Assembly (NCBI RefSeq): GCF_002160985.1
Contig: NZ_NFLQ01000011.1
Location: 44,878-108,877, forward strand
Direction: 5' to 3'
Source of the DNA: Lachnoclostridium sp. An118
Lineage (GTDB): Bacteria > Bacillota > Clostridia > Lachnospirales > Lachnospiraceae
DNA length: 64,000 nt
Below the pieces are notes generated by a model. It had not been told where the DNA came from. It saw only the letters and a list, made by a program, of their open reading frames with translations, and did not search any database. A program made the position numbers and the translations under genes. Positions 6,379 to 27,665 of this stretch are shown here, piece after piece; position 1 is the first letter of the stretch; every line of letters begins with the position of its first letter.

Positions 6379-6510
6379 ATGAAGGAGTATATTGAGGAGA
6401 GGGCAGTGGAGATCGCATGCTATATCATTGAACATAAGGCGACCGTAAGGCAGACGGCAAAAAGATTCGGGGTAAGTAAATCTACCATACATATGGAAGT
6501 GATAATATAG
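6379..6510 (+). CDS. spoIIID: SpoIIID, N-terminal half (split gene, left part)
   Basis: SpoIIID is a small DNA-binding regulator of mother-cell genes in sporulation. The 43-codon frame starts MKEYIEERAVEIACYIIEH, then KATVRQTAKRFGVSKSTIH, the characteristic SpoIIID start and first helices of its HTH. After codon 38 (His, 6490-6492) the match stops: foreign residues MEVII and a stop follow, cutting the protein inside the recognition helix. The missing part (KDVTDRLLQINPSL onward) lies at 27517-27665. Joining the parts at ACATA (6489-6493 = 27512-27516) gives 264 nt, 87 codons plus stop, in frame, a normal SpoIIID length. The left fragment alone cannot be a working regulator. An in-frame ATG at 6361 lies inside the hairpin and is less likely as start. 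Confidence 0.9.
   Translation: MKEYIEERAVEIACYIIEHKATVRQTAKRFGVSKSTIHMEVII
6489..6493. other. Left attachment site of the spoIIID element (core ACATA)
   Basis: ACATA at 6489-6493 recurs at 27512-27516. The surroundings are ACCATACATATGG on the left and ACCGCACATAAAG on the right. Crossover in this core restores ATACATAAAGATGT in the host gene, in which ACAT and ATGT form an inverted repeat, as often seen around serine recombinase crossover points. The exact cut is inferred. Confidence 0.75.
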
Positions 6511-6545
6511 AGCGATTTGTGTGGATGGTGAGATAAAGAAATAAT

Positions 6546-6570
6546 GCCGGTCAGCAGACCGGCTGTTTTT
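6546..6570 (+). terminator. Terminator just inside the left end of the spoIIID element
   Basis: GCCGGTC (6546-6552), AGCA loop, GACCGGC (6557-6563), then TGTTTTT. It lies about 50 nt inside the element and would stop transcripts entering from the spoIIID promoter. Confidence 0.8.
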
Positions 6571-6699
6571 GCGAAAAGAAAACTTGCTAAATCAGAGATA
6601 ATATTAAATAATAGAAATTAGAAACGGCCAGACTTTATGGCAGGAGAAATTGTGACTGAATAATAGATGATTGGAAATCAAAAGGAAAGGAAAAGAACG

Positions 6700-7050
6700 A
6701 TGTCTGAATGGAAGAATGTTACTGATACATTTTCAGAGGAGGAAAGACATTATAACGGTAAATATCTGGAAATTGATGAAGTGTATGATGATGTGGTTGA
6801 AGTCAGTGTGTTTTCAGCGTTGGATGAGCCATATGAAATATATTTCACTTATGATATATTTTTTGGAATTGTATATGCTGAAAAAGAAAATGTTTATGAA
6901 ATCAGGGACGAGATGAAGCGAGAGCTTCAGACAGAATACGAAAAGCATAAACAAGTAACAGATGAGTTTATAAATAAGTTTTCCGAAAAATATGGTGTAT
7001 GTATGCCGGGAGATATTTTCTCTAATTTTGATATTTCAACATTTTTTTAA
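6700..7050 (+). CDS. Hypothetical small acidic protein
   Basis: 116 residues from ATG 6700, with AAAGGAAAGGA as a weak purine ribosome site. The sequence is acidic and soluble (MSEWKNVTDTFSEEERHYNG, later DEVYDDVVEVSVFSALDEPYE), with no signal or membrane segment. It is followed 61 nt later by the SEC-C protein on the same strand. It is not recognised. As a small first gene of a recombinase-borne element it could be a recombination directionality factor, but nothing in the sequence shows DNA binding. Confidence 0.6.
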   Translation: MSEWKNVTDTFSEEERHYNGKYLEIDEVYDDVVEVSVFSALDEPYEIYFTYDIFFGIVYAEKENVYEIRDEMKRELQTEYEKHKQVTDEFINKFSEKYGVCMPGDIFSNFDISTFF

Positions 7051-7111
7051 TGGAGAGTCTGAGAGTTGGAGCAGAGGGGCAGTGAATGAAATAAATGGAG
7101 GAATTTTAAGA

Positions 7112-25794: not shown

Positions 25795-25818
25795 ATTATA
25801 TCAAAGTATTTAACAGTT

Positions 25819-25859
25819 AAAGGATAGCAATTTTTATTCCTTAAAATTGCTATCCTTTT
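25819..25859 (+). terminator. Terminator after the dGTPase gene
   Basis: AAAGGATAGCAATTTT (25819-25834) pairs with AAAATTGCTATCCTTTT (25843-25859), a 15-bp stem with T tail. It isolates the recombinase gene from the defence operon. Confidence 0.88.
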
Positions 25860-25939
25860 GTGTACAAATAATGTATTCATGGTATAATAAAATGAAATAG
25901 TAACAGGAATAAATAGAAGTAACAGAAAGGTAAACGTTT

Positions 25940-27517
25940 ATGAACATTGCAGCATACTGCCGTGTTTCCACGGATAAATCCGACCAGCTGAACAGCCTGG
26001 AAACCCAGAAACAGTTTTTTACTGAATACGTTCAGCGCACCGGAGATCACCTTGTTAAAGTATATGCTGATGAGGGGATTTCCGGAACAAAAATTAAAAA
26101 CAGAAAAGAATTTTTACAGATGATGGCCGATGCAGAGCACGGCCTTTTTGATATGGTTGTCGTAAAAGATATTTCCCGTTTTGCAAGGAATACCGTGGAT
26201 CTTCTTCAGAACATCCGCCGTCTGAAAGCGCTTGGAATCGAGACACAGTTTCTCACGGCCAACATGACCAGCATGGGGAACAGCGAATTTGTCCTCACCA
26301 TCTTTGGTGCTCTGGCGCAGGAAGAGAGTGCCAATACATCCAAGCGTATCAAGTTCGGGAAAAAGGTGAATGCGGAGAAGGGCCGGGTTCCCAATATTGT
26401 TTTCGGATATGACAAGACGATCGGTGATTATTTCAATCTCACGATCAACGAGAAAGAAGCAAAGGTGATACGTCAGATTTATCAGTTGTATACAGAAGAG
26501 GGCTACGGATGCGCCGCTATTTCCAATAAACTGAATGAGCAGGGAAGCCGGACAAAGCGGAACTGTAAGTGGAGCCAGAATGCTGTCAGCCGGATTCTCA
26601 CAAATGAACTTTATACTGGAAAGATTATTAATGGGAAACAGGAAGTAGCAGATTTTCTTACCGGACAGCGGAAGGAAAAGGATGAGACGGAATGGTTGGT
26701 GACAGAGCGGCCGGAACTGCGAATCATTGATAATGAAGTGTTTGAACAGGCGCAGAAGATTCTTCATTCCCGGAATCAGGCGTTTAACCTGAATCACGAA
26801 CGGCAGAGTAACAAATACCTGTTTTCTACGTTGATCAAATGTAAGGAGTGCGGATGGTCTTTCCGCCGGACAGTGCGAAAGTATAAGAATACTTACGTAC
26901 GCTGGGTATGTTCGGGACATAACGGGAAAGGTGCTGATTCCTGTCCCAATGCAGTGACCCTGGATGAGGAAGAACTGATCGAAGTGCTGCAGGAATACTT
27001 TTCGAATGTGCTGAAGAATAAGAAGAAAGTCATTCAGTATGTGGTGAAGGAATTTCAGCGTGTCTACAAGGCGAAAGATGAAAATGTGGAGTATGAAAAG
27101 GAGCTGAAGGATAAGCTGACAAAGCTGAAAGCCATGCGGGAGAAATACATGGACATGTATACCGATGATCTGATCACAAGGCAGGAGCTGAATGACCGGA
27201 TCGGCGGGGCAAGGCAGGAAATCGAGCGGCTGGAAAATGAATTAAAAATGGTGACCTATCAAATCACAAAGGGAGATCAGCTGGAAGAATTGCTGAATAC
27301 AACGTTTCAGTCGATCGAGGACATTACAGATGTGCACCAGATGACCAATACCCAGCTGAAAAAAATCATTGAGAAGATTGAAGTGGACAAAGATGGAAAT
27401 GTGGACATTTACCTGAAACTGCTAGGAGATCTGGGACTGGACGAAGCCATACTGGTTGAAGACCGGACAGAAATACCGGACGCAGAAAACGCTCAAAATA
27501 ATCACGACCGCACATAA
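25940..27517 (+). CDS. Large serine recombinase of the spoIIID element (SpoIVCA-like)
   Basis: 525 residues. Catalytic domain: YCRVSTDK with nucleophile Ser10, VYADEGISGTKIKNR, VVKDISRFARN and FVLTIFGALAQEESANTSKR. Next come a recombinase domain (YGCAAISNKLNEQGSRTKRN), a zinc ribbon (LIKCKECGWSF and VCSGHNGKGADSCPN), a coiled coil near 370-440 and a C-terminal tail. Such enzymes integrate and excise elements between short att sites. The gene ends HDRT-stop, with the TAA at 27515-27517 built from the core ACATA plus one host base, so integration supplies its stop. It is transcribed toward spoIIID. A TATAAT lies near 25889, but the sigma factor of this promoter is not clear. Confidence 0.93.
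   Translation: MNIAAYCRVSTDKSDQLNSLETQKQFFTEYVQRTGDHLVKVYADEGISGTKIKNRKEFLQMMADAEHGLFDMVVVKDISRFARNTVDLLQNIRRLKALGIETQFLTANMTSMGNSEFVLTIFGALAQEESANTSKRIKFGKKVNAEKGRVPNIVFGYDKTIGDYFNLTINEKEAKVIRQIYQLYTEEGYGCAAISNKLNEQGSRTKRNCKWSQNAVSRILTNELYTGKIINGKQEVADFLTGQRKEKDETEWLVTERPELRIIDNEVFEQAQKILHSRNQAFNLNHERQSNKYLFSTLIKCKECGWSFRRTVRKYKNTYVRWVCSGHNGKGADSCPNAVTLDEEELIEVLQEYFSNVLKNKKKVIQYVVKEFQRVYKAKDENVEYEKELKDKLTKLKAMREKYMDMYTDDLITRQELNDRIGGARQEIERLENELKMVTYQITKGDQLEELLNTTFQSIEDITDVHQMTNTQLKKIIEKIEVDKDGNVDIYLKLLGDLGLDEAILVEDRTEIPDAENAQNNHDRT
27512..27516. other. Right attachment site of the spoIIID element (core ACATA)
   Basis: Second copy of the 5-nt core, embedded in GACCGCACATAAAGATGTG. The bases after it are codons 39 onward of spoIIID (AAAGATGTGACCGAC, read KDVTD once codon 39 is completed). 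Confidence 0.75.
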
Positions 27518-27665
27518 AGATGTGACCGACCGCCTTCTCCAGATCAATCCGTCCCTGGCGGCGGAGGCCAGGAAGATCCTGGATGTAAACAAGTCTGAGC
27601 GGCACATACGGGGAGGACTTGCTACCCGGGAAAAGTACAAAGGCACGCACCACATGGCTTTGTAG
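27517..27665 (+). CDS. spoIIID: SpoIIID, C-terminal half (split gene, right part)
   Basis: The frame reads KDVTDRLLQINPSLAAEARK, then ILDVNKSERHIRGGLATREK and a short tail to TAG at 27663-27665. HKDVT..RL and ERHIRGGLATREKY are strongly conserved SpoIIID sequence. There is no start codon or ribosome site of its own; the open frame upstream belongs to the recombinase end and att DNA. After excision it would continue codon 39 of the left half, restoring the recognition helix and the C-terminal basic helix that give SpoIIID its high DNA affinity. Alone it is not expressed as a useful protein. Confidence 0.9.

Follow-up and report, generated by a model that had tools for sequence, protein, structure and literature searches.

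An intervening element with its own large serine recombinase splits the sole spoIIID gene of Lachnoclostridium sp. An118 and recurs in other Clostridia

The spoIIID gene of Lachnoclostridium sp. An118 is split in two by an intervening element. The locus lies in a stretch of 64,000 nucleotides (contig NZ_NFLQ01000011.1, positions 44,878 to 108,877 of the forward strand), which was analysed as a whole and is called the window. The genome (G000) was scanned as 57 contigs and is 99.99% complete. The gene halves, the recombinase, and the attachment (att) sites, whose crossover dinucleotides were predicted from the sequence, are arranged as follows.

6323..6351, + strand: sigma-E-like promoter of spoIIID, GCATGAC, 14 bp, CATACATT; 27 nt before the ATG
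6379..6492, + strand: spoIIID 5' half, codons 1-38; as integrated, followed by five foreign codons (MEVII) and a stop at 6508-6510
6490..6491, + strand: predicted attL crossover dinucleotide CA, the first two bases of the His38 codon
6492..6536, + strand: left end, one attP arm; in the circle left by excision, it would supply the 14 C-terminal residues of the recombinase and its stop (YGSDNIERFVWMVR)
6493..27515, + strand: intervening element between the spoIIID halves, 21,023 bp
25940..27517, + strand: large serine recombinase, 525 residues as integrated; its stop, TAA at 27515-27517, takes two bases from the host Lys39 codon
27513..27514, + strand: predicted attR crossover dinucleotide CA
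27516..27665, + strand: spoIIID 3' half, codons 39-87 plus stop (27663-27665)

The gene is broken after His38, within the stretch STIH-KDV, which we take to be the recognition helix. Once the halves are joined at the common ACAT, a SpoIIID of 87 residues is open in frame, and it aligns to B. subtilis SpoIIID (PDB 2l0k) over residues 1-81 with an E value of 5.6e-27. The Pfam SpoIIID family (PF12116) matches only these two pieces in the whole genome, which therefore has one gene copy. The first-pass annotation had placed codons 1-38 at 6379-6492, the recombinase at 25940-27517 against the right junction, and 21,023 bp between the halves, and had predicted the 87-residue product. These claims agree with the coordinates, the measured insert, and the alignment, and the recombinase stop overlaps the right half. 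It had begun the right part at 27517; the remaining codons do adjoin the recombinase, but they start at 27516. The second intact spoIIID that it had named as a possible objection is absent from the 57 contigs by the PF12116 scan. It had also called for comparison with uninterrupted relatives, and one such relative (G005) lacks the insert and has a 3' sequence 99% identical to the window over the 1.6 kb compared.

The identity to G005 varies along the flanks. The right flank (window 27513-29144) is 99% identical over 1.6 kb and 91% over 8.8 kb; the spoIIID 5' half with its promoter is 88% identical. From this contrast, the insertion site is perhaps a recombination mosaic.

The element encodes the large serine recombinase within itself. 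The Resolvase, Recombinase, and Zn_ribbon_recom domains (Pfam) are all above cut-off in the window's protein, and Ser10 is invariant across 12 sequences. The left ends of the elements share ACAT followed by a GTAACAAAATAGAACGG-like arm, and the right ends carry a AACCGTTCTAA...ACRACC-like arm followed by ACAT. Centred on CA, the arms form inverted repeats with a mean of 16.75 matches out of 26 (range 12-20, 20 elements), compared with a control mean of 6.7 (standard deviation 2.4, maximum 17, 4,000 positions). The att core is thus short and common to both ends, and on the sequence its exact removal gives an in-frame gene.

Breaks of this kind recur in other genomes (numbered G; single loci are numbered L). 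A genus search of 11 genomes found spoIIID split in G000, G004, and G008 and intact in seven, and no SpoIIID in G007. A family sample of 397 genomes contained SpoIIID in 241, and in 29 of these only as pieces. On the basis of the junction sequence or the adjacent recombinase, 23 of those 29 were called type A (the window's recombinase or its att arms) and four type B. The other two breaks were not counted as this element: in G125 the pieces lie at contig ends, and in G362 the 3' half is fused to a different open reading frame (ORF). The gene is cut by either type in 27 of the 241 SpoIIID-bearing family genomes (11%); with G004 and G008 added, type A comprises 25 genomes in 23 genera.

Type A, family sample: G000, G013, G038, G041, G065, G103, G116, G133, G180, G183, G198, G210, G232, G242, G266, G273, G279, G298, G342, G355, G367, G402, G405 (six were called from att arms alone: G180 from the right arm only, and G103, G405, G013, G266, and G210 on short or left-only contigs; G367 was called from a neighbouring recombinase end, 60% over 74 residues)
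Type B, family sample: G086, G142, G181, G356 (G181 and G356 show type B in part only)

Both halves lie on one contig in 14 type-A genomes, including the window's, and at seven loci of the genome-contig scan described below; G242 is a single-contig assembly. A chance origin of the split is excluded, because other genomes, including one single-contig assembly, are broken at the same codon. The smallest element measures 3.5 kb (G065) and the largest about 75 kb (G116). Their recombinases are 67-98% identical to the window's where well covered, and 44-48% identical in G065 and G279. In an order sample, the recombinase was found at E <= 1e-150 in 22 of 295 genomes of several families (recombinase match only).

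Type B is a different insertion. Its symmetric centre is a GA in the Asp40 codon, six bases (two codons) beyond the type A crossover. In G086, G142, and G181 (loci L212, L210, and L214, respectively), serine recombinase genes stand in tandem before the 3' half, and seven such proteins were confirmed by Pfam. The type differs between two members of genus g29, and the site was therefore hit independently. In G003, a fossil 3' half bearing a type-B-like scar lies 2 kb beyond an intact spoIIID (L207, G003:C2, 5521-7871), and there is no recombinase ORF in the 2 kb before the fossil half. It looks as if this spoIIID had been rescued after insertion.

The recombinase itself was traced by scanning genome contigs with the 12-sequence alignment. 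At least 582 relatives were confirmed, and the best 80 were kept. Of the 42 closest of these loci (L116-L157), 35 have the spoIIID 3' half at most 200 bp away, and 38 have it at most 2.4 kb away. It is 1.0-2.4 kb off at L130, L156, and L157, and was not found at L116, L134, L146, and L155; L137 is on the same contig as G116. Among the 38 more distant loci, the 3' half was found at one only (L164). The record titles name Lachnospiraceae, Oscillospiraceae, and other Clostridia. Pseudoflavonifractor phocaeensis An569 is among the carriers, as is Anaerobacterium chartisolvens DSM 27016, which has both recombinase and 3' half; no statement on spores was found among the papers listed for A. chartisolvens. 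In the protein database, 5,644 of the 7,996 candidates scored were recombinase relatives at E <= 1e-100.

In three viral contigs from IMG/VR (L196-L198), an undivided attP follows a recombinase of 73% identity; the attP is symmetric at 20 of 26 positions in L196, and L196 and L197 are identical over the stretch compared. L198 further encodes phage DNA polymerase, PhoH, NrdD, and endolysin families. Taken with the undivided attP, this means that a phage carries such an integrase with its att site joined. Such a phage presumably inserts into spoIIID. Phage and plasmid collections yielded a plasmid (32%) and two phage records (57% and 33%). G000 and G004 share 94% identity in the recombinase region and 87% in the left flanking chromosome, and their proportion of synonymous differences (pS) is 0.19 for the recombinase and 0.49 for spoIIID. 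The recombinase is less diverged than the chromosome and spoIIID, which indicates that it moves. Strict vertical co-inheritance finds no support, as recombinase and SpoIIID distances are weakly correlated (Mantel r 0.37, p 0.058, 12 pairs).

Several features suggest that the split gene is still in use. In 28 of 32 genes from split and intact relatives, the best-scoring sigma-E-like site is positioned 26-31 nt ahead of the start (the consensus is given in PMC3416734; this and the other papers are cited from excerpts). It is weak in G232; in G183, G142, G298, and G402 it is displaced or unclear. All 23 joined pairs are open and in frame. SpoIVA was found in all 29 fragment genomes, in 205 of 212 genomes with intact SpoIIID, and in 22 of 156 without SpoIIID (Fisher p 2.5e-20, fragments versus none). 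Gpr was found in 28 of the 29 carriers queried. The sigK gene is whole in the window's genome (C14:6654-7274, 300.1 bits against a cut-off of 298.65), and the element is therefore not a sigK skin. In G232, sigK is split as well, with a serine recombinase overlapping its 3' half (L216, L217); the sigK of G355 consists of two pieces, each on its own contig (L218, L219).

Taken together, a mother-cell sporulation gene is split, with no intact copy elsewhere. The first-pass annotation had read the locus as a skin-like element, and this reading is supported by the anatomy of the locus, the adjoining recombinase, the arms symmetric about CA, the exact in-frame join, the retained sigma-E-like promoter, and the recurrence. 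It also fits the open halves, which are under purifying selection, and the kept set of tested sporulation genes. It is predicted, with a probability of roughly 0.8, that the element leaves the DNA of the mother cell early in sporulation and thereby rebuilds the gene.

Such excision in the mother cell would need its own trigger. In the sigK skin of C. difficile, the recombinase is expressed constitutively, and sigma-E and SpoIIID control the directionality factor CD1234; the expression of B. subtilis spoIVCA is also under sigma-E and SpoIIID (PMC5025042). Since SpoIIID helps to switch on sigK skin excision, elements in spoIIID would need a trigger independent of SpoIIID, which is probably sigma-E. 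For this reason a sigma-E-dependent directionality factor is proposed. The recombinase would be made from a housekeeping-type promoter. The directionality factor would be made once sigma-E is active, without the help of SpoIIID, and would turn the recombinase to excision. The sigma-E promoter before the 5' half would then drive the rebuilt spoIIID, and the spore would retain the split copy. By eye, the upstream regions of the recombinases contain TATAAT-like boxes and no sigma-E sites, which fits the C. difficile plan. The best candidate for the directionality factor, and a candidate only, is a small conserved ORF:

21841..22080, + strand: 79 residues, candidate directionality factor, searched for with a hidden Markov model in 20 elements

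This FHNPN family is matched strongly in 15 of the 20 elements, weakly in two, and is absent in three; no Pfam or NCBIfam family was found for the window's copy. Several recombinase upstream regions also have a recurring TGTAACAGAACG box that resembles one attP arm, and at 25800-25939 of the window the box reads AGTAACAGGAATA (both by eye). This box hints at possible self-regulation of the recombinase.

The recombinase frame crosses its own att site. In the integrated window it ends ACA TAA, where one base of the TAA comes from att and two from the host Lys39 codon. Recombinase ends were compared at 42 junctions (18 genomes and 24 of the loci L117-L142). The stop falls exactly at the spoIIID-derived TAA in 27. 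In six junctions the His codon is CAC, so the recombinase reads on in frame into host sequence. At the remaining nine, a different frame is met or the fetched stretch begins inside the recombinase. In the joined (circle) form of 22 elements, the frame continues beyond the core in 17, stops at the core in one (G183), and stops before it in four. Of 28 left ends, 14 would encode exactly 14 tail residues (e.g. YGSNKIERFVWVIE, with an invariant Trp), five would encode 17-18, and nine have lost the tail. This prediction takes T as the third base of codon 38; seven scan loci were checked, with T in six and C in L151, and both L151 and G279, which have C, already count as tail lost. In the set chosen for its 14-residue tails, the ratio of nonsynonymous to synonymous differences (pN/pS) is 0.45 in the recombinase frame versus 0.72 and 1.31 in the other frames, and variation is highest at third positions. 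The tail is present in the undivided recombinase gene of the phage copy L198. Tail-less elements are smaller (8 vs 10, Mann-Whitney p 0.034) in an exploratory, post hoc comparison.

As read from these frames, the recombinase acquires its stop codon from the host upon integration, and in the joined form it would be 14 residues longer, as in the phage copy. A suicidal integrase was considered and rejected; 525 residues with three domains stay, and the loss is the 14-residue tail only. The two forms might act as a switch, with the long protein made from the free element and the short one from the chromosome. The long form might favour integration, and the short chromosomal form might serve for excision. 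The tail would then decay where the element only leaves a doomed mother cell. A wider proposal is tentative and stands somewhat below even odds. In this two-way gene switch, integration would split spoIIID and give the recombinase its stop, and excision would complete both genes; the long free form would integrate, and the short form would excise. Across Clostridia, at least two recombinase types would have made spoIIID a DNA checkpoint between sigma-E and sigma-K, and in genomes like G232 one mother cell would excise first the element in spoIIID and then the one in sigK.

Several observations weigh against developmental excision. G180 has a type-A right arm, yet no related recombinase was found in the 8 kb fetched. 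The circle-junction pattern was found in none of the 397 genomes and in no viral contig, although the pattern was strict and misses the joined attP of L196. A scan for sigma-E-like motifs inside 20 elements gave 22 sites versus 27 expected, none above chance. Mean pN/pS is higher in split pairs (0.23-0.24 in both halves) than in intact pairs (0.135); as the split set is broader and synonymous sites approach saturation, this demonstrates constraint, though not that it is equal. No Gpr match was found in G405 among the 29 queried. Because the recombinase moves between hosts, some insertions may also be recent. This mobility, and the phage contig with such an integrase and a joined attP, would be expected if a mobile element or phage exploits a conserved site in spoIIID, the gene is inactivated, and the carriers have lost or are losing sporulation. 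Consistent with this, SpoIIID is intact (by E value) in seven of the eight genera that have a type-A genome and a second sampled SpoIIID genome. However, the carriers retain SpoIVA in every case and Gpr in all but one, and no joined pair has lost its frame. The element of G065, at 3.5 kb, still keeps a recombinase, and the fossil half of G003, with no recombinase ORF before it, stands alongside an intact spoIIID. Loss of sporulation is therefore regarded as unlikely.

Active lysogeny, in which excision occurs in a fraction of cells at any time and spores come only from cells with a whole spoIIID, would agree with the TATAAT-like recombinase promoters. The yin element in yabG is likewise described as excised at all time points (PMC10747680). 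The lack of circle junctions by the strict pattern argues against it. Germ-line loss would also remove the elements, yet type A spans 23 genera, and this explanation is considered improbable as well. An assembly or binning artefact might be suspected, as many of the relatives are drafts and the halves lie on separate contigs in several. The halves are on one contig here, in 13 other type-A genomes, and at seven scan loci, with G242 a single contig, and an artefact is extremely improbable. Excision in the mother cell remains the preferred reading.

The element also carries cargo:

18388..18732, - strand: NikA/MobC-type mobilisation protein (Pfam scan)
20859..21764, + strand: RepA_N-type replication initiator (Pfam scan)
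22620..25794, + strand: defence-like cargo next to the recombinase, of AAA_21/AbiLi-AriA type, RloB/AbiLii type, and dGTP triphosphohydrolase type

The 19 element proteins scanned with Pfam are of recombinase, mobilisation, RepA_N, ABC, peptidase, or defence types, or match no family. No phage structural family was found in this sample of the ORFs, and an intact prophage was rejected on this ground. At 12179-14040, two proteins have similar N-terminal ends, and the second is fused to a resolvase-domain end (below cut-off); it is perhaps a decayed recombinase.

The element shares features with several known systems, as the excerpts describe them. Like the sigK skins of B. subtilis (spoIVCA) and C. 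difficile (CD1231/CD1234), it combines a split mother-cell gene, its own large serine recombinase, a short att core, and rejoining of the gene, which is predicted here; as in C. difficile, the recombinase lies beside the 3' part of the gene (PMC5025042). Unlike in these skins, the target is spoIIID, one step earlier, and their control by sigma-E and SpoIIID would be circular here (PMC5025042). The gin element in gerE of B. cereus ATCC10987 is also a non-phage element; it carries serine recombinases and interrupts a small mother-cell regulator gene (PMC5595907). Type B resembles it further in having two or three recombinases in a row. However, gerE is a later regulator, and the window's element has one recombinase adjoining the split and other cargo. 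The yin (yabG), vfbin (spoVFB), vrin (spoVR), and SP-beta (spsM) elements likewise intervene in mother-cell spore genes (PMC10747680, PMC4191935), but none of their targets is a central transcription regulator. According to PMC10747680, yin is unique to one strain, whereas the spoIIID element recurs in many genera. The archaeal suicidal (SSV-type) tyrosine integrases also have att inside the integrase gene, which is altered by integration (PMC8371274); the enzyme here is a bacterial serine recombinase that loses a short tail only and keeps its three Pfam domains.

The interrupted sporulation genes named in the excerpts are sigK, spoVFB, spoVR, spsM, gerE, and yabG. No interruption of spoIIID was found in the excerpted literature searched on interrupted sporulation genes; most subscription papers lie outside its coverage, so novelty is unproven. 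A phage encoding a spoIIID has been reported (PMC5027557), which differs from a split gene. Differences in spoIIID between two Anaerostipes hadrus strains are mentioned in the part of PMC12888040 available, where their nature is unstated.

SpoIIID acts between sigma-E and sigma-K, and an element inside spoIIID would be a direct test of the coupling of such elements to development. The att site within the recombinase frame may give serine integrases a compact switch of direction that can be tested. Where annotation looks for a single whole gene, the carriers could be called spoIIID-negative or broken, and this might bias predictions of spore-forming gut bacteria.

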